From the NCBI GenBank assembly GCA_029547025.1, contig JAKPQA010000221.1, positions 28,697-92,696 on the forward strand: a DNA stretch of 64,000 bases, read 5' to 3'. Source of the stretch: Armatimonadota bacterium (GTDB lineage Bacteria; Armatimonadota; Zipacnadia; UBA1398; JAKPQA01). The notes below the pieces were generated by a model. It saw nothing but the letters and a program-made list of their open reading frames with translations. It was not told the origin of the DNA and searched no databases. The position numbers and the translations under genes are program-made. Positions 5,787 through 61,719 of the stretch are shown here, piece after piece; within the stretch, counting starts at the first letter, position 1, and every line of letters starts with the position of its first letter.

Positions 5787-5990
5787 ATGGCCTACGATTG
5801 TCCCTCGCTGAAGAAGAACATGGAGAGGTGCAACTGCTCCGCCGACGGCTGCCCGCGCAAGGGCAACTGCTGCGAGTGTCTGCACTACCATCTGTCGAAC
5901 CGCCAACTGCCGGCCTGTGCGTTCACGAATGACATCGAGAAGACCTACGACCGCTCCTTCGAGCGCTTCGCCAAGATGGTGCTGGGGTAG
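5787..5990 (+). CDS. Small Cys-rich protein, DUF6485-like
   Basis: The protein has 67 residues and starts at the ATG at 5787, preceded by TTGGAGACCCGG. The track start at 5706 overlaps aroC and adds unconserved sequence. The pattern CPSLKKNMERCNC, then CPRKGNCCECLHYH, then PACAF gives eight cysteines, consistent with a compact metal-binding knuckle. I recognise this as resembling DUF6485, a family without a known function that occurs as single small genes. There is no signal peptide or membrane segment, so it is likely cytoplasmic. It follows aroC by about 80 bases and could be cotranscribed; nothing ties it to aromatic synthesis. Confidence 0.75.
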   Translation: MAYDCPSLKKNMERCNCSADGCPRKGNCCECLHYHLSNRQLPACAFTNDIEKTYDRSFERFAKMVLG

Positions 5991-54395: not shown

Positions 54396-55613
54396 CTACC
54401 TCAGCATGCTGAGGCCCTCCGGCTCCATGCACCGCGCGCCTGGGTCGAGCCAGGCGCGACCGATACGGCGGATCTCGGCCCAGTTCCCCGCCGCGCCCAG
54501 GAGCACGGCGAACACGCGCCTCTCGGTCCAGCGATTCAGCTCCATGTCCTTGCATAGCTCGAAGTAGTCCGGGGAGAACGACCGGATGCGCTGGCCCGGT
54601 GGGACGAAGAACTGGCCGACCGACCCAAAGCTGTACGGATAGGGTGACCCGGGTTTCCAGACGTTGGTCTGTGAGTTGAGCCAGCCGATGGGCCAATGGT
54701 CCCACAGGCCGGTGCCCCACCCGCACCCGCCCTCGGCGCCGGGAGTGCAGTGATCGACGAGCTGATTGCGGTCGGGCGGGAACCCGCTGGCCTCACCCAG
54801 AATGGCGAACAGCAGCTTCTCCCGGAACGGCATCACCAGTGCACAGCCGCGCGAGCGCGAGATGGCGGCGAGCGTGGCGTCATCGCCCCGCCGGCGGACG
54901 CCCCCGTTCTCACACCAGTAGATGTCGTACCTCTCGTTGCTGAAGAGATCCAGCACCGTGTGGGTCTGGTAGTCGCCGTGCGCCGGGTCGCGCGGGAACA
55001 GGTCGCTGATGGTGGCGCCCACCGGCGCCACGCCGAACAGCTCGACCGGGTCAGTGCTGTAGCCGACCACCTCGCCGGGCATGAGGCTCTCATAGCTCAT
55101 CCGCCGCAGCACCAGGCCGTTCGGCGCGGCGAAGTAGTCCTCGGTGCCGCGCAGGCGCGGGCGCGTATCGTCGTTCATGTTCACGCAGAAGTAGGTCCAG
55201 CGGACCCACACGCGCTCCGGGCCGGCCTTGATAACATCGACGAAGCTGTTCCGCTCGCGCCGGCCGGGGTTGTTGAACAGCTCGGCATCGCCCAGATTGC
55301 CCTCGAAGAACTGGTTGCACATGGCGGCGCCACTCGGCAGCTCGAGGAGTGGGCAGTAGCTGGCCTCGTGGCTGAAGATGAGCCGCTCCGCCCGGTCGCG
55401 CCAGTAGACGACCACGGCCCTGCGCGCGTTACCATCGGCATGCGGAGGGCTGGGCTCCATGGGTCCGGTGTAGTGGCCGGGTGCGTAGTCGGTGACCTCG
55501 GCAACAGAGACGCCCGGCGTCGACCGCTCTGCCAGCTCGGCCAGAGTGATCGGCCCGGGCTGGGCATCGCCGGCACCCATGGAAGCCAGCACGCACGCGC
55601 AGATGAGTGCCAT
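54396..55613 (-). CDS. Exported protein of unknown function
   Basis: The protein has 405 residues with a short signal peptide (MALICACVLASMGAGDAQ). The ATG at 55613 follows GGAGG. Mature-protein segments such as DGNARRAVVVYWRDRAERLIFSHEASYCPLLELP and RVWVRWTYFCVNMNDDTRPRLRG look mostly beta, and several cysteines (YCPLLELP, AMCNQFFEG, YFCVNM, YWCENGG, HCTPGAEGGCGWG) may pair as disulfides. I recognise no family. It is the last gene of the minus-strand run 54396-61719, 72 bases after the TIM-barrel gene. Confidence 0.65.
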   Translation of the reverse strand: MALICACVLASMGAGDAQPGPITLAELAERSTPGVSVAEVTDYAPGHYTGPMEPSPPHADGNARRAVVVYWRDRAERLIFSHEASYCPLLELPSGAAMCNQFFEGNLGDAELFNNPGRRERNSFVDVIKAGPERVWVRWTYFCVNMNDDTRPRLRGTEDYFAAPNGLVLRRMSYESLMPGEVVGYSTDPVELFGVAPVGATISDLFPRDPAHGDYQTHTVLDLFSNERYDIYWCENGGVRRRGDDATLAAISRSRGCALVMPFREKLLFAILGEASGFPPDRNQLVDHCTPGAEGGCGWGTGLWDHWPIGWLNSQTNVWKPGSPYPYSFGSVGQFFVPPGQRIRSFSPDYFELCKDMELNRWTERRVFAVLLGAAGNWAEIRRIGRAWLDPGARCMEPEGLSMLR

Positions 55614-55685
55614 GGGGGAACGCCTCCATCATACTCCGTCTCACTCAGGGGCATTGTAGTGCAGTGGAGGCCCCTGGAGGTATGC

Positions 55686-56870
55686 TCACCCGGGTGGCCA
55701 TGTGTAGGGAGCGAAGGTGCGAAGGAGCTCGAGGGCGTCGGCAAGGCGCTGCGTCTGCTTGACCACGACCCCCAAAGCGGGGACCGGTCCCTGGGCCTCC
55801 AGTCTGAGGAGTTGGGCGACCAGATCGACATCGGCACCGGCATCGTCGGTCGGAATGGTCGGAACCACCTGCGGTGCCGGAGCGATGCGCGCCACGAGGT
55901 CTCGAACCATGCGGTAGAGCTCCACCGGCGGGCCGGCCGCGCCGCCAGGCCCCTGCCAGGGCCCTTCGAGGAACACGCCGTCGACCGCGCCGTCGGCGAG
56001 CCAGCCCAACCAGTCCTCACAGGCCTGAGCCCGCTCGAGGGGGTCCATCAGGTAGGTCTCCGGCCGGCCCCACGCCCAGATCTCGGCACCGGGCTTGACG
56101 GCGCGGTACGCACCAACAAACGCGCGCAGGGCCGCGTCCACCGCGCTTTGTCGCCATGCAGCCACGCGCATGAGAGGGATACGCAGCTTCGGATCGGTAC
56201 TGGCGCCGCCCAGTCGAACCAAGTCGAGCGGGTCCTGCCGGAGCTCGCGCACACACGCTGCCCGGGTCGATTCTGAGAAGCCGACCCACTCCGTGTGGCT
56301 GTAGCAGTGGCGGAGCACGAGCCCGTCGAGGTCGGGCACCGCGGTCCACAGGTCACTGGCCAGACTGCGCATGACCAAAGCCGTGGCCGGGTGCCACACG
56401 GACAGGTACCTGCCCGCGTCACCCGGCTCGTCAGGGGAGCCTGGCGGCCTCGTCTCGAACCAGTCCGGGTGCGCGGCTTGCACCCCCGCAGGGAGTGCCA
56501 CATCGCCCCAGCGGAGTGTGTCGACGCTCCCCAGCACGCGCGCTCCATGCGCGTGGGCGCTCGCCAGAGTGACGCGCCACTGATCGACTGCCGCTGCCTC
56601 AGCGGCGGGAACGAGCTCCCGAGGCGCGGGCGCCACATACGACTGCCCCGAGATAGACAGCGGGACGACTATGGCGCAGCCGTCGCCGAGGGGCGCAGCT
56701 CGGCCGACGTCAGCCATTGAGCAGAACACGACGCGGACAGGCGGCGCGCCCGCTGCGGTACAGGTCGGCGCGCCGCCCGTCAGCATCAGCACCAGGGATG
56801 CAGAAGCGGCCAAGCTGCCTACTCGGTGTCCCCGCAGTGCGCGCCAGCCTTCGTCGCCAGGCCCGGGCAC
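55686..56870 (-). CDS. Exported TIM-barrel glycosidase-like protein (GHL10-type)
   Basis: The GTG at 56870 follows GGAGGGG and lies directly at the upstream gene's stop; the track ORF starts earlier without support. The 394-residue protein has an N-terminal signal (SLAASASLVLMLTGGAPTCTAAG). The body contains alternating strands and helices: VRVVFCSMADVGRAAPLG, AHGARVLGSVDTLRWG, LSVWHPATALVMRSLASDLWTAVPDLDGLVLRHCYSHTEWVG and AVDGVFLEGPWQG. This pattern, with HPATALVMRSLA and the DLDGLVL strand, resembles the GH10-like GHL10/DUF187 family of exported proteins. A catalytic Asp/Glu cannot be assigned with confidence. Confidence 0.7.
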   Translation of the reverse strand: MPGPGDEGWRALRGHRVGSLAASASLVLMLTGGAPTCTAAGAPPVRVVFCSMADVGRAAPLGDGCAIVVPLSISGQSYVAPAPRELVPAAEAAAVDQWRVTLASAHAHGARVLGSVDTLRWGDVALPAGVQAAHPDWFETRPPGSPDEPGDAGRYLSVWHPATALVMRSLASDLWTAVPDLDGLVLRHCYSHTEWVGFSESTRAACVRELRQDPLDLVRLGGASTDPKLRIPLMRVAAWRQSAVDAALRAFVGAYRAVKPGAEIWAWGRPETYLMDPLERAQACEDWLGWLADGAVDGVFLEGPWQGPGGAAGPPVELYRMVRDLVARIAPAPQVVPTIPTDDAGADVDLVAQLLRLEAQGPVPALGVVVKQTQRLADALELLRTFAPYTWPPG

Positions 56871-56871
56871 G

Positions 56872-58359
56872 CTACCCCTCCAGGTCGAGCACGTACGGAT
56901 CGACCGAGACGCACGGGCAGTCGCGCCCGACCAAGGAGAGGGTGGCGTCGCGGCGGTGGCTGACGTCGAGAACAACAGGCTCGCCCTCGGCTGCCGCCGT
57001 GCTGTCGTCGCGAGTTAGGCGCAGTGGCTCCAGCCCGAACTCGAGGTTCAGCCCAAGCCGCACCGGCGTGGCGTCGACAACGGCCGGGGGATGCTCTTGG
57101 GCCGCCAGGCAGGCACGGAGCAGGTCCCGCGGCTCGGCCTCAAGCTCACCGAATGGCTTCGCCGGCCGGTCCTCCAGGGCGAGGCAGACCAACTTCAGGT
57201 CCTCCCGATGGGGCAGTTGCGCGCTCGCCCACCGAGCCGCGAGCTTCAGCGGCTCTGGCACCGCGCGCCCCTGTGGCTCGGCCAGTCGAAGCCCTTCGCC
57301 CTCAGGCTGGATCCACGCCCCGATCGCGAAAGCCAGCCCCTCCAGGGCCGACCCGCCCGGAGCCTTGCCGGAACTCGCCCACACGTGGTTCTCGACGAAC
57401 GGGCCCGGATCGACCCGGCATGCCGTGAAGCGCTGGCACACGTCGCCGACCCTCATGGTGCCACCGAGGTCGACCGGTAGCTCCTGGAGCGCCTGGAGCC
57501 GCTCTCGGGCGAGCAACCAGTCTGTCTGATAGACCCTGACACTGTCGGCGATCTCCTCGGGGGGCTCGCCCAGGAAGTCGGCCCGGAACCGGTCCGGCCC
57601 CCAGTCGGCGACGGCCGCCTGCCCCGACGCTGCGTCCAGCCTGATGCGCTTGGGCACGCCCAACGCGCGGCCCACCAGAGGGTTCCGCTCGCGAAGCACC
57701 GCGCCGAGTTCGATGGTCCGGCCGGTGCCGTCCGGCAGGAGGATCTCGACGGTGGGCGTGAGGCCCACCGAGATCCCGAGGGGTCCCTCGAGGGAGTGCT
57801 GGAGGCCCCGGCCGCGCGGGTTGAGGACGCACGTGCGCTCCAGCGCGGCCTGGGCCTCTTCGGTCAGTTGCTGGGCCAACACTCGCGACCCGGAGAGCAG
57901 CCGTGTGGCGACCTCGAGGGGTGCTGTCGCACATGCCAGCGCCATCACGCTGGCGCCAACACCGTCGCGCCCTCGGGTGCTCGTGAGCCCCCACGGCCGG
58001 GGCCCTTCGGGGACGACCACCACAAAGTGGCGTGTGGTGATCCCGTAATAGCCATGAGGGCGCACCCAGCCCACGATGCCCCGGAGCGTATCGCACGGGA
58101 GACGGAGATCCGCGGGCTGGCTCAGCCACTCAGGCCGCTCGCCGCCCTCGTCACCCACCACAGGCACCAGGCACGGCACGCCCGACCAGCCCGACACCCA
58201 CTCGAGAGCCGCAGCCACGTCCCCGCCACATGCGGCAAGCTCGACCTCTTTCTGGGCCCAGTCGGGCCAGTACGGGCCCCAGCCATCTGGCGGCGCAGCC
58301 CCAGTGCTTACGAGCGCGCAGTACACGAATGCCACCACGCTAGCGGCCGTAGCTCGCAC
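56872..58359 (-). CDS. Exported protein of unknown function
   Basis: The protein has 495 residues. A signal peptide (AASVVAFVYCALVSTGAAP) starts it. An early module, DTLRGIVGWVRPHGYYGITTRHFVVVVPEG (about 90-120), is shaped like the short alpha/beta STN/secretin-type domain, and a similar one may occur in the neighbour at 58926 (LERALDAIAEPLNLIWFCHPSGLVLMYERP). Later segments include a region of mixed helices (LTEEAQAALERTCVLNPRGRG) and a C-terminal beta part ending LSLVGRDCPCVSVDPYVLDLEG. No catalytic motif is seen. Its stop abuts the TIM-barrel start. Function unknown. Confidence 0.6.
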   Translation of the reverse strand: MRATAASVVAFVYCALVSTGAAPPDGWGPYWPDWAQKEVELAACGGDVAAALEWVSGWSGVPCLVPVVGDEGGERPEWLSQPADLRLPCDTLRGIVGWVRPHGYYGITTRHFVVVVPEGPRPWGLTSTRGRDGVGASVMALACATAPLEVATRLLSGSRVLAQQLTEEAQAALERTCVLNPRGRGLQHSLEGPLGISVGLTPTVEILLPDGTGRTIELGAVLRERNPLVGRALGVPKRIRLDAASGQAAVADWGPDRFRADFLGEPPEEIADSVRVYQTDWLLARERLQALQELPVDLGGTMRVGDVCQRFTACRVDPGPFVENHVWASSGKAPGGSALEGLAFAIGAWIQPEGEGLRLAEPQGRAVPEPLKLAARWASAQLPHREDLKLVCLALEDRPAKPFGELEAEPRDLLRACLAAQEHPPAVVDATPVRLGLNLEFGLEPLRLTRDDSTAAAEGEPVVLDVSHRRDATLSLVGRDCPCVSVDPYVLDLEG

Positions 58360-58392
58360 AGGGCCACCTCCCGTCGCGTGTGCCGACCCGAA

Positions 58393-58887
58393 CTACGGGC
58401 AGGGCTCACTCACAATGGCCCACGACCAGGCCCTGTCGTGGTTGTCGTACGCGTTGCAGACGCCAACGGGCGTAGGCGGCGTGCCGGGACGCCACATGTG
58501 GTGCGCCTGCGCGTCGTATGAGCCGACCGTCTCGGTGTGCTTGCCAAACCACTGCTGGCGAACCGTTTCCTCCCACGTCTGCGACTGCGGAGGAGCAAAG
58601 ACGCCGAACCAGTTCGTGGGTACCTGTGCGTAGCGGCACATCCATAGGTGGAATACGCAGTCCACTTGCTCGGGATACTGCTCCACCTCGTGTCCGCCGC
58701 ACTCGATGGTTATCCAGCATGGCATACTCAGGTAAGGGTTACAGGTAGTCATGTCGTGGTCGCAGACAACCGTTGTAGATACGGGGTCGGTCGACCATGG
58801 GGGATCAGAGACGATGTAACATGGGTTGCCTTGTGCGCTCACTACACCAGCGCAGCAGAGAACCAGAACAGCGCATCTCAGGCCCAT
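58393..58887 (-). CDS. Small exported Cys-rich protein
   Basis: I chose the ATG at 58887, with AAGGGAAGAGG upstream and a clean signal peptide (MGLRCAVLVLCCAGVVSAQG); an ATG at 58929 overlaps the previous stop (ATGA) and is possible. The mature protein of about 145 residues is rich in cysteines (NPCYIVSD, VVCDHDMTTCNPYLSMPCWITIECGG, VDCVFHLWMCRY), likely forming several disulfides in an exported beta-rich fold. No recognised family. It is the fourth member of the exported run between 58926 and 56872. Confidence 0.6.
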   Translation of the reverse strand: MGLRCAVLVLCCAGVVSAQGNPCYIVSDPPWSTDPVSTTVVCDHDMTTCNPYLSMPCWITIECGGHEVEQYPEQVDCVFHLWMCRYAQVPTNWFGVFAPPQSQTWEETVRQQWFGKHTETVGSYDAQAHHMWRPGTPPTPVGVCNAYDNHDRAWSWAIVSEPCP

Positions 58888-58925
58888 TCGGCCTCTTCCC
58901 TTCAGGAACTCGCGAACTGCTGCCC

Positions 58926-60383
58926 TCATCGAGTCGTCTGACCGATCGAAGGCTCGAACGGCCCGATCCTCGCCAACATGACGTAGTCCCATGAGCTCAC
59001 GCTGTACCCGTTCACTGGTCCCGTCAGATCCCAATCCTCCTGTGGCCTCGCCACGCGCAGGTCACAATCGACCCGGGCGCTCACCTCCGACACGCTCACG
59101 ACGTCTCCACCAGGAGCCTCACCGATCGCCTCCATCGCCAGGGCGCGTCCGAGCGCAGACTGCCGGCCCGGCTCGAGGCCGTCCCATGGTTGCCACACCA
59201 ACGATCGCCAGGTCTCGTCCGCCCACGAAGGGTCGCCACCGGTGCCCACCAACAACGAGCGTGCCGACGGCCGTAAGATATCGTGCAAGACCTGGTTGGC
59301 GGTGGCCGTTACCCAGGCGTCGGTCATGACGTCGGCCGGAGCGACGACGACGGTTCCATCCAGACCGCGCATCTCCGCGCCGAGCACGGTCATCAATGCC
59401 CCCAGGACGGTCTGGGCCGGCTGCTCCCGCAGTGAGATGAGCACCCGATAACGGTCAAACAGCGCGGAGACGGCTGACCGGCTGCCAGGAGTCGTGCAGG
59501 CGCGGACCACCGTCTCGGCACCGGTTGGAGCCACCTCGGCTCCCCGCACTGGTTGCCCGTGGACGATCCGATCGGCGCTCACACCCTCGGGAGCGAAAGC
59601 GCTGAGGTCCCACGGCTCGTAAGGCACCGCCTGGACCCTTGCGAGGGCCGCTATGCGGTCACGCCAAGCCGCAGTGCAGAAGGACCGCGGTCCCCCCGCG
59701 AGCGGAGAGCCAGTGGCCTCGAGCCGATCTCTCGGCGGGATCACGTCCTCCTTGCCCAGCACGGGACGCTGCACGGCGATGGGGTCACTGGGACCGGCCC
59801 GCCGCATCGCCACCGCGAGACAGCACAACCACACGGCCGGTGGGCGCCCCGGGTCCAGCGGCGCGACCTTGCCGCCACCGAAGTTGCGGACCGCGCGCGC
59901 GGTGACCCGGGCGAAAGGGTCGTCTCCCGACAGCGGCTGGACCCACTCCCCGGCCAGGAACCGCGCCCGATCCTCGTCGCTCGGGAGGGCCTCCACGAGC
60001 TCCCAGAGCGTGCAGAGCGTCGCAAGCATGTCCCGATGAACGCCAGCCCAGGCAACGGGCGTCAGTTGCGTGGGCCTTTCGTACATCAATACGAGGCCCG
60101 AGGGGTGACAGAACCAGATCAGGTTGAGCGGCTCGGCGATGGCATCCAGGGCCCGCTCCAGCGATATCTCGGCAGGATGATCCCCCGGCAGAGCCGCCTG
60201 CTCGTCAAACCGCTCGGGATTGGGCAGGCCAGCCACGACCTGCGCCTCTGCATGCACGATGCCTTCCCAGACCTCGCGGACTGTCACTTCACCAGCCGGG
60301 ACCGGTACCACGATGTCATAGGGTGGCGCGGTGGCCGCGGGCATTGCGAGCGCGATGACGGCACCGATAGTGGCGTACACCAT
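58926..60383 (-). CDS. Exported protein of unknown function
   Basis: The protein has 485 residues; the ATG at 60383 lies just after the cytochrome stop. It has a signal-like start (MVYATIGAVIALAMPAATAPP). A module ISLERALDAIAEPLNLIWFCHPSGLVLMYERP (about 70-105) resembles the STN-like segment of the neighbour at 56872. The long middle part is helical, and the C-terminus is beta. I see no metal or catalytic signature. It is four bases from the cytochrome gene, so cotranscription is nearly certain. A structural or sensory role at the envelope is an inference. Confidence 0.6.
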   Translation of the reverse strand: MVYATIGAVIALAMPAATAPPYDIVVPVPAGEVTVREVWEGIVHAEAQVVAGLPNPERFDEQAALPGDHPAEISLERALDAIAEPLNLIWFCHPSGLVLMYERPTQLTPVAWAGVHRDMLATLCTLWELVEALPSDEDRARFLAGEWVQPLSGDDPFARVTARAVRNFGGGKVAPLDPGRPPAVWLCCLAVAMRRAGPSDPIAVQRPVLGKEDVIPPRDRLEATGSPLAGGPRSFCTAAWRDRIAALARVQAVPYEPWDLSAFAPEGVSADRIVHGQPVRGAEVAPTGAETVVRACTTPGSRSAVSALFDRYRVLISLREQPAQTVLGALMTVLGAEMRGLDGTVVVAPADVMTDAWVTATANQVLHDILRPSARSLLVGTGGDPSWADETWRSLVWQPWDGLEPGRQSALGRALAMEAIGEAPGGDVVSVSEVSARVDCDLRVARPQEDWDLTGPVNGYSVSSWDYVMLARIGPFEPSIGQTTR

Positions 60384-60387
60384 CTCT

Positions 60388-61719
60388 CTAGCCCTCCCCG
60401 TCTTTCCCGGCCGAGCAGCTCAGCCGGTCGAAGTAGGATCCGCCAAACGCCGGGCTGTCCTGCGGCGTGTGGCACTCCATGCAGCGTTCCGCTGGCGCAC
60501 AGCGCGTGACGAAGCGCGGCCGGCGCGTGAGCGCGTGCACCACGCCGTCTCCGTGGCAGGCTGCGCACTCTACGCCGTCGCCCGCACCATACGGCGGCGG
60601 AGGCAACTCACCTGTCAGGGCGTATGGGGTCGAGTGGCACCGCAGGCACTCCGGCAGAACGCGATCTCCCGCGGCCAGGGTCTGGAGCGCGCGGGCGTGG
60701 CGCGATCCGCGCCAGCGCTCATACGAACGCGGGTGGCAGGAGCCGCACGCCTCCGCCGGCGCGTATGCCACACGAGGATCCAGCCACGGCTTGCTGGGTG
60801 TCGGGCTTGGGCCGCCCGGTGAGACGGCGGCCGTCCGGTCGCCTCGCGCCGACGCTCTGCGGCGCGCGTCGTAGTACTCCGTGGCGATCCGCTGCACCTC
60901 TGCATCGGGGGCCAGCGCGGCCGAGACGGGCTCGCGCCGTACCGAGATGCGAAAGCCGGCCGCGTCACTCGCGGGCCAGCAATCAATCAGCACAAGCGCA
61001 CGGCCCCTGTCGGGGAGCTCAGGCACCAGGCAGTGGCCCCGGGCCTGGAGCCACTGGGCCGCCCGGGGAGATGCGCTCGCCAGGAGCACACTGGTGAACC
61101 CCTGGTCGCCGAGAGCGCGTGCGAGGCGGTCGCGCGCGGCTGCCGGCATTGGCTCGGCCACGACCAATAGCAGGTCACAGGCTTCTGCCGCAAACCCGCT
61201 GCAGAGCGTTGGTTCGTCGGGCCCGATGGGCCCGACCGCGAGCAACTGGATGCGCAGGCCACCTAGCTGGATCTGATGCGGTTCGACCTGGGCTCCGGGG
61301 CGACTGCGAGGGACCGCGGGCAGGCCAAGTCGGGCGGCCTCATCCAGAGCGGTCGGGAGGATCCCGAGGTCCGCGCTGTTGGGGATGACGTAGTCATAGC
61401 GCATCCGCGAGAGGGCGCTGAGCATGGACGAGACAGCCTCGGCGACCCCGCCGAAATTGCCGCCCGATATCACGACCGACGGCACCTCGGCGCGGAGCCG
61501 CTCCACCAGCGTGGCTCGCCGCGCGATGCCGCCCTCGTTCACGCCACCGCAACCACAAGGCTCGAGGTAACCCTCGATGTCGGACGAGTAAATGATGCGT
61601 GCAAATGGGACGTCAGGCGCCGACGGCGCCTGACCCGCGCGAGCCGCGCTCGATCCGGAAAGCAACGCGAGCCATAGTAGCCAACTGCGCACCGGCAACG
61701 CCCCCGTCCGGGAACCCAT
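60388..61719 (-). CDS. Exported tetraheme cytochrome c fused to a metallophosphoesterase-like domain
   Basis: The protein has 443 residues with a signal peptide (SWLLWLALLSGSSAARAG). The first half resembles the 5'-nucleotidase/metallophosphoesterase-like module often fused to cytochromes: IIYSSDIEGYLEPCGCGG, then GGIARRATLVERLR and VVISGGNFGG; its usual metal residues are not all present (GNFGG in place of GDxxD). The C-terminal part has four CxxCH haem sites: CGSCH, CLRCH, CAACH and CMECH, plus HxxxxR-type axial candidates (SRHARALQTL). It looks like a cytochrome c554-type electron carrier in the periplasm or at the surface. It heads the minus-strand run of exported proteins. Confidence 0.85.
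   Translation of the reverse strand: MGSRTGALPVRSWLLWLALLSGSSAARAGQAPSAPDVPFARIIYSSDIEGYLEPCGCGGVNEGGIARRATLVERLRAEVPSVVISGGNFGGVAEAVSSMLSALSRMRYDYVIPNSADLGILPTALDEAARLGLPAVPRSRPGAQVEPHQIQLGGLRIQLLAVGPIGPDEPTLCSGFAAEACDLLLVVAEPMPAAARDRLARALGDQGFTSVLLASASPRAAQWLQARGHCLVPELPDRGRALVLIDCWPASDAAGFRISVRREPVSAALAPDAEVQRIATEYYDARRRASARGDRTAAVSPGGPSPTPSKPWLDPRVAYAPAEACGSCHPRSYERWRGSRHARALQTLAAGDRVLPECLRCHSTPYALTGELPPPPYGAGDGVECAACHGDGVVHALTRRPRFVTRCAPAERCMECHTPQDSPAFGGSYFDRLSCSAGKDGEG

Follow-up and report, generated by a model that had tools for sequence, protein, structure and literature searches.

A recurrent envelope gene cluster in Armatimonadota that pairs a tetrahaem UshA-like protein with a GHL10-like barrel and a candidate cysteine-rich substrate

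What does a packed run of exported proteins led by a tetrahaem cytochrome do outside the inner membrane of a bacterium known from a draft genome? We addressed this question for six minus-strand genes, P1 to P6, at positions 54396-61719 of a 64,000-nucleotide stretch (the window) of contig JAKPQA010000221.1, assembly GCA_029547025.1 (Armatimonadota; Zipacnadia; UBA1398; JAKPQA01). A preliminary description of the sequence had proposed that all six genes form one undescribed envelope system, possibly one that couples a substrate to extracellular electron transfer. The reading that we favour, with a probability of about 0.45, is that P1-P5 make up one copy of a modular envelope apparatus that matures or secretes a Cys-rich exoprotein, P3, and that the window holds a derivative lacking the C39 peptidase encoded at sister loci. 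The cluster is real and recurrent, and it combines parts of familiar types in an arrangement that is new.

A recurrent core of cytochrome and barrel protein

The six open reading frames (ORFs) were found where they had been described, and the run itself is real. The gaps from P1 to P6 are, in order, 4, 38, 33, 1 and 72 bases; P5 starts with GTG one base past the stop codon of P4, with GGAGG upstream. Export-signal-like N-termini were recognized by eye, with no signal-peptide program, on six of the six proteins. Scanning the run for consensus promoters and terminators gave none, which carries little weight for a G+C-rich organism.

The P5 family gave 23 strong matches in 291 genomes of the phylum. 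Fourteen of these lie within ~5.4 kb of a P1-type cytochrome, in the genome of the window and seven others, and the remaining nine are at a contig end or on contigs of at most 5.3 kb. Genes at the sister loci were called with a simple custom codon-based caller, and the recurrent partners of P1 and P5 are LolA-like proteins, small exported Cys-rich proteins and STN-type proteins, some of which have a C39-like domain at the C-terminus. Conservation of gene order in relatives had been named as a check on the system: the core of a P1-type protein and a GHL10 protein, usually joined by an STN-type protein, is conserved, while the order of the genes varies. Both the P1/P5 pairing and the recurrence of P2-P3-P4 exceed what chance would give. 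It is extremely improbable that there is no unit at all and that the genes are chance co-directional neighbours, P1 and P5 simply belonging to widespread families. The unrelated P6 speaks for it, but a cytochrome lies near all 14 strong GHL10 matches with enough surrounding contig, P2-P3-P4 recur in tandem, and a P2 follows a P1 paralogue on contig C358. The proposal of a functional unit that works outside the inner membrane is supported.

Short Tat-signal peptides occur at 12 loci, all with RR.F and with a Cys close to their end; those of UBA1398 (L089 8606-8791, L090 9247-9435, L103 1212-1406) have short CC-rich tails, unlike those of other genomes. One run at another locus (L150, G255:C210, 2669-9096) encodes a P1-type cytochrome, a C39-like domain without His, and DUF1573-like, thioredoxin-like and prepilin-like proteins. 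At L096 (G059:C46, 12395-13999), a small PqqD-like ORF and one resembling radical-SAM proteins, both named from sequence appearance only, lie some 6 kb downstream from the cytochrome.

P1 (60388..61719, minus strand) is an exported protein with a UshA-like domain followed by a tetrahaem domain. It matches Pfam Cytochrome_C554 (E=3.6e-11) and NCBIfam UshA_like_PCGU (NF041198; E=3.7e-33), and contains exactly four CXXCH haem-binding motifs, at residues 325, 358, 385 and 413 (60469..60747, minus strand). NF041198 is listed as a CxU selenoprotein family in PMC13188914; no function is stated for it in the portions of PMC13188914 and PMC9312934 available to us. P1 resembles this family in having a UshA-like domain with a PCG-C/U motif and then a c-type cytochrome domain, and thus carries both of its features, a CxC motif in the UshA-like domain and a cytochrome domain; it differs in scoring 114.9 bits, under the 275-bit equivalog cut-off, and in having Cys in place of selenocysteine. 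Alignment with 5'-nucleotidases and relatives placed the CGC motif at residues 55-57 (61549..61557, minus strand), which is likely the place of CxU in the selenoprotein relatives. In the same comparison the first metal-binding His is replaced, NSA stands in place of GNH, and the dimetal ligand set of UshA and 5'-nucleotidases (DxH, GD, GNH) is not intact. Since most metal ligands are lost, phosphoesterase activity of P1 is unlikely; of the cytochrome with a metallophosphoesterase-like module that had been described, the four haems and the UshA-like domain stand, and most of the metal site does not. Several relatives of P1 read through one in-frame TGA (G027:C60, G031:C300, G005:C438, G060:C65, G066:C45 and others), which agrees with the listing of NF041198 as a CxU family and suggests selenoprotein forms of P1-type genes in the phylum. 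A ~1290-aa ORF of the window's genome (L030, G000:C311, 8386-12252), matched twice by the P1 search, combines a pair of UshA-like modules with a thioredoxin-like stretch and haem motifs of the Cyt_C554 type.

The tetrahaem Cyt_C554 fold of P1 and its weak similarity to MtrC/DmsE-type families are what one would expect if P1 delivered electrons to the outside or to an acceptor in the periplasm while the remaining proteins bound or degraded the donor. Pfam and NCBIfam found no porin among the six genes and the run encodes no large multihaem partner, unlike the operons of Mtr/Pio-type conduits, which hold an outer-membrane porin and a multihaem cytochrome. What steadily accompanies P1-type cytochromes is Cys-rich proteins, STN/C39 proteins and a GHL10 barrel. 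Extracellular electron transfer, the function first suggested, is not supported, and we rate it, or a respiratory role, as very unlikely.

Tandem cassettes, possible STN-like modules and the barrel

P3 (58393..58887, minus strand) is a small exported Cys-rich protein of 164 aa with 12 Cys, and is our candidate substrate. It is flanked in the run by P2 (58926..60383, minus strand) and P4 (56872..58359, minus strand), both exported, both with weak, putative STN-like modules and both from families confined to their own genome within the searched sets. P2 and P4 match no Pfam or NCBIfam family, and P3 has no Pfam or NCBIfam match and no CXXCH; together with P6, these proteins keep their earlier status as unassigned exported proteins, with no confident family for any. 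Paralogues of P2 were found in the genome of the window only, among 61 genomes searched, and all four copies that the P4 profile found are likewise there, the 290 other phylum genomes giving none. P3 has three paralogues, 30-34% identical to it, in which many Cys positions are conserved.

These paralogues are arranged in cassettes. Contigs C129 and C130 each read P2 (from residue 138), P3, P4 and the start of the next P2, and have identical 141-base ends and different inner parts. On C358 a P1 paralogue precedes the beginning of a P2, and on C47 P2-P3-P4 are followed by a convergent gene. The simplest reading of these contigs is that another P1 is probably followed by at least three tandem P2-P3-P4 cassettes. 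The start of P2 has 93-100% DNA identity where it can be compared, and the cassette proteins have diverged to 31-54% protein identity. The P1 paralogue on C358 (L022, G000:C358, 215-1593) lies in two frames, with the change near 1030-1069, the result of an assembly error or a broken gene.

Tandem cassettes in which a near-identical P2 start adjoins a strongly diverged remainder resemble recombining ones, and could indicate a polymorphic surface-display or interbacterial system. P3 would then be an effector or surface protein under diversification, and recombination would exchange its dedicated carriers or partners, P2 and P4. We consider this unlikely: Pfam and NCBIfam found no toxin domain in P3, and a core of cytochrome and GHL10 protein is atypical of such systems.

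P2 and P4 had been described as seeming to share a short STN-like module. The P2 profile matches an STN-type protein of genome G002 at 4.9e-05 in a small local set, and a P4 paralogue matches by BLAST (1e-5) a protein on C271 that in turn resembles STN-type proteins. P2 and P4 show no detectable homology to each other, a scan of genome contigs with the P4 profile gave no match, and neither did its comparison with the PDB. STN-like modules are plausible but weak for the two proteins, their sharing of one is not borne out, and such modules are present in the wider family, in the STN-type proteins of sister loci. A profile of four STN-C39 proteins matched PilQ (E=0.013) and a C39 protease (0.16) in the PDB, and this is the likeness to the N-domains of secretins and PilQ, which for P2 and P4 is indirect; these proteins differ from secretins in having no secretin barrel. 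Seven secretins are encoded in the genome. The N-terminal part of the STN-C39 profile matches long ORFs throughout the phylum; a secretin reading of these was dropped after four had been fetched and Pfam found no secretin, and nothing at all, in them. A profile of STN-like pieces (A10) reached GspD only at 0.87; its strongest PDB matches, designed toroids, were set aside as chance matches of helix repeats.

P5 (55686..56870, minus strand) is the exported barrel protein. Although its match to Pfam GHL10 (PF02638) scores 12.9 bits, under the gathering cut-off of 27.9, the predicted fold agrees with the earlier call of a GHL10-like TIM barrel: an AlphaFold2 model from five sequences (predicted template modelling score 0.75) retrieved in Foldseek the PgaB C-terminal domain (template modelling (TM) score 0.63/0.67) and Cwp19 (TM score 0.58/0.59). 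The modelled P5 thus appears to share its fold with the GHL10, PgaB C-terminal (GH153) and Cwp19 barrels, and differs from PgaB and Cwp19 in sequence, with 11-12% identity at TM scores of 0.56-0.67. Elsewhere in the phylum, a 977-aa protein (L183) holds in one chain an STN module (3.7e-11) and then a GHL10-like domain (4.9e-8, Z=1000), which we take as a modest link between P2/P4-type proteins and P5; in two other fetched STN ORFs a GHL10-like domain reaches only 0.02-0.03. The likeness of P5 to the PgaB hydrolase domain and Cwp19, and the joining of STN and GHL10 modules in one chain, would suit peptidoglycan or exopolysaccharide remodelling, with the GHL10/GH153-like barrel as the core enzyme, the STN-type proteins as anchors and the cytochrome as an accessory. 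Such remodelling leaves the Cys-rich proteins, the Tat peptides and the correlation of C39 peptidases with leaders (below) unexplained, and we regard it as quite unlikely.

C39 peptidases at the sister loci and the limits of the unit

The exported C39 proteins of the sister loci exceed the Pfam cut-off (33-38 bits versus 22; E=6e-8 to 1.6e-9), and Pfam found no such peptidase in the run of the window. A double-glycine-type leader (of the type DEELARVVGG) just after the Sec signal peptide of the Cys-rich protein is present at 10 of 11 loci with C39 and at 0 of 9 without an intact C39, some of the latter being on contigs so short that a C39 gene may have escaped view. Shuffled sequences would give 1.7 of 11 and 0.5 of 9, and the Fisher p of 1.2e-4 is only a guide because the motif is post hoc and loci that share a genome are not independent.

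A parallel is FapD of Pseudomonas, a Sec-exported periplasmic C39 peptidase whose target is unclear according to its authors (PMC5557850). As in the Fap system, the sister loci encode a Sec-exported C39 peptidase beside exported substrate candidates. In contrast to it, the candidates at these loci are rich in Cys and have a leader, C39 domains are fused to STN or DUF1573 domains, the copy in the window has no C39, and the match to the FapD model reaches only E=0.037.

P6 (54396..55613, minus strand) is an exported protein of an unfamiliar family, co-directional with the others and outside the recurrent module. Its relatives, 76% identical in G018 and 74% in G055, which belong to two other families of the phylum, stand in unrelated contexts; P6 is absent from the sister P1/P5 loci, and its comparison with the PDB gave nothing convincing. 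Its place in the unit is ruled out by these close relatives, and the grouping of all six genes had to be reduced to five. The run is followed by a beta-helix gene (52092/52104-54185) and preceded by a DUF2961 gene (from 61855 or 62011), both on the plus strand; therefore, the six-gene minus-strand run is bounded. Elsewhere in the window, a plus-strand ORF at 5787-5990 encodes 67 aa with 8 Cys.

A proposed maturation apparatus

In the favoured reading, P3 would leave the cytoplasm through the Sec pathway and fold by disulfide formation outside the inner membrane. The UshA-like domain of P1, with its CxC motif (CxU in some relatives) and no metal site, could accept electrons from the thiols of P3 or of a partner protein, and the four haems would relay those electrons to the respiratory chain. 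P2 and P4 may serve as STN/secretin-N-domain-like scaffolds or adaptors that handle P3 or dock it to a secretin, and P5 could trim or bind wall or surface polysaccharide. At the sister loci, the exported C39-type cysteine peptidase would cut the double-glycine-type leader off the Cys-rich protein after Sec export; in the window this step would be absent, and copies of its kind would have multiplied P2-P3-P4 instead. VKOR was not found in the genome, which fits the use of some other oxidant without being evidence for P1, because DsbA and DsbB were not searched.

Several points weigh against this reading. The disulfide chemistry, like the roles of the individual proteins, is inferred. The STN assignment of P2 and P4, made via intermediates, is plausible but weak, and the AlphaFold2 model of P4 alone is unusable (predicted local distance difference test score 34.5). 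Within the searched sets P2, P3 and P4 have no relatives outside their own genome. The cassette order was reconstructed from contig ends because the genome (6.3 Mb in 369 contigs, 96% complete) is fragmented and most likely metagenome-assembled. The leader motif was framed after the sequences had been seen, at loci some of which share a genome, and some C39/leader pairs occur without a cytochrome (in G256 none at the threshold used), so that the parts are separable.

No earlier description of such an envelope system was found, in line with its having been called undescribed. A literature search did not find DUF1573, C39 and cytochrome together, and by title and abstract the one publication retrieved on Armatimonadota and multihaem cytochromes does not have such a cluster as its subject. 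A broader claim, which we hold to be doubtful, is that the loci represent a new class of envelope machine that matures and secretes Cys-rich exoproteins. In it, Sec-exported precursors would lose a double-glycine-type leader to a C39 peptidase outside the inner membrane, a tetrahaem protein with CxC or CxU would couple their oxidation to respiration, and this lineage would have diversified the machine into several loci, tandem cassettes among them. If the favoured reading is true, the cluster would offer a natural class of substrates for exported C39 peptidases and would place the UshA-like (seleno)protein cytochromes, for which we found no function, in a biological context. It would also show that a family of exported Cys-rich proteins has expanded in a single lineage of a phylum that is known mainly through metagenomes.

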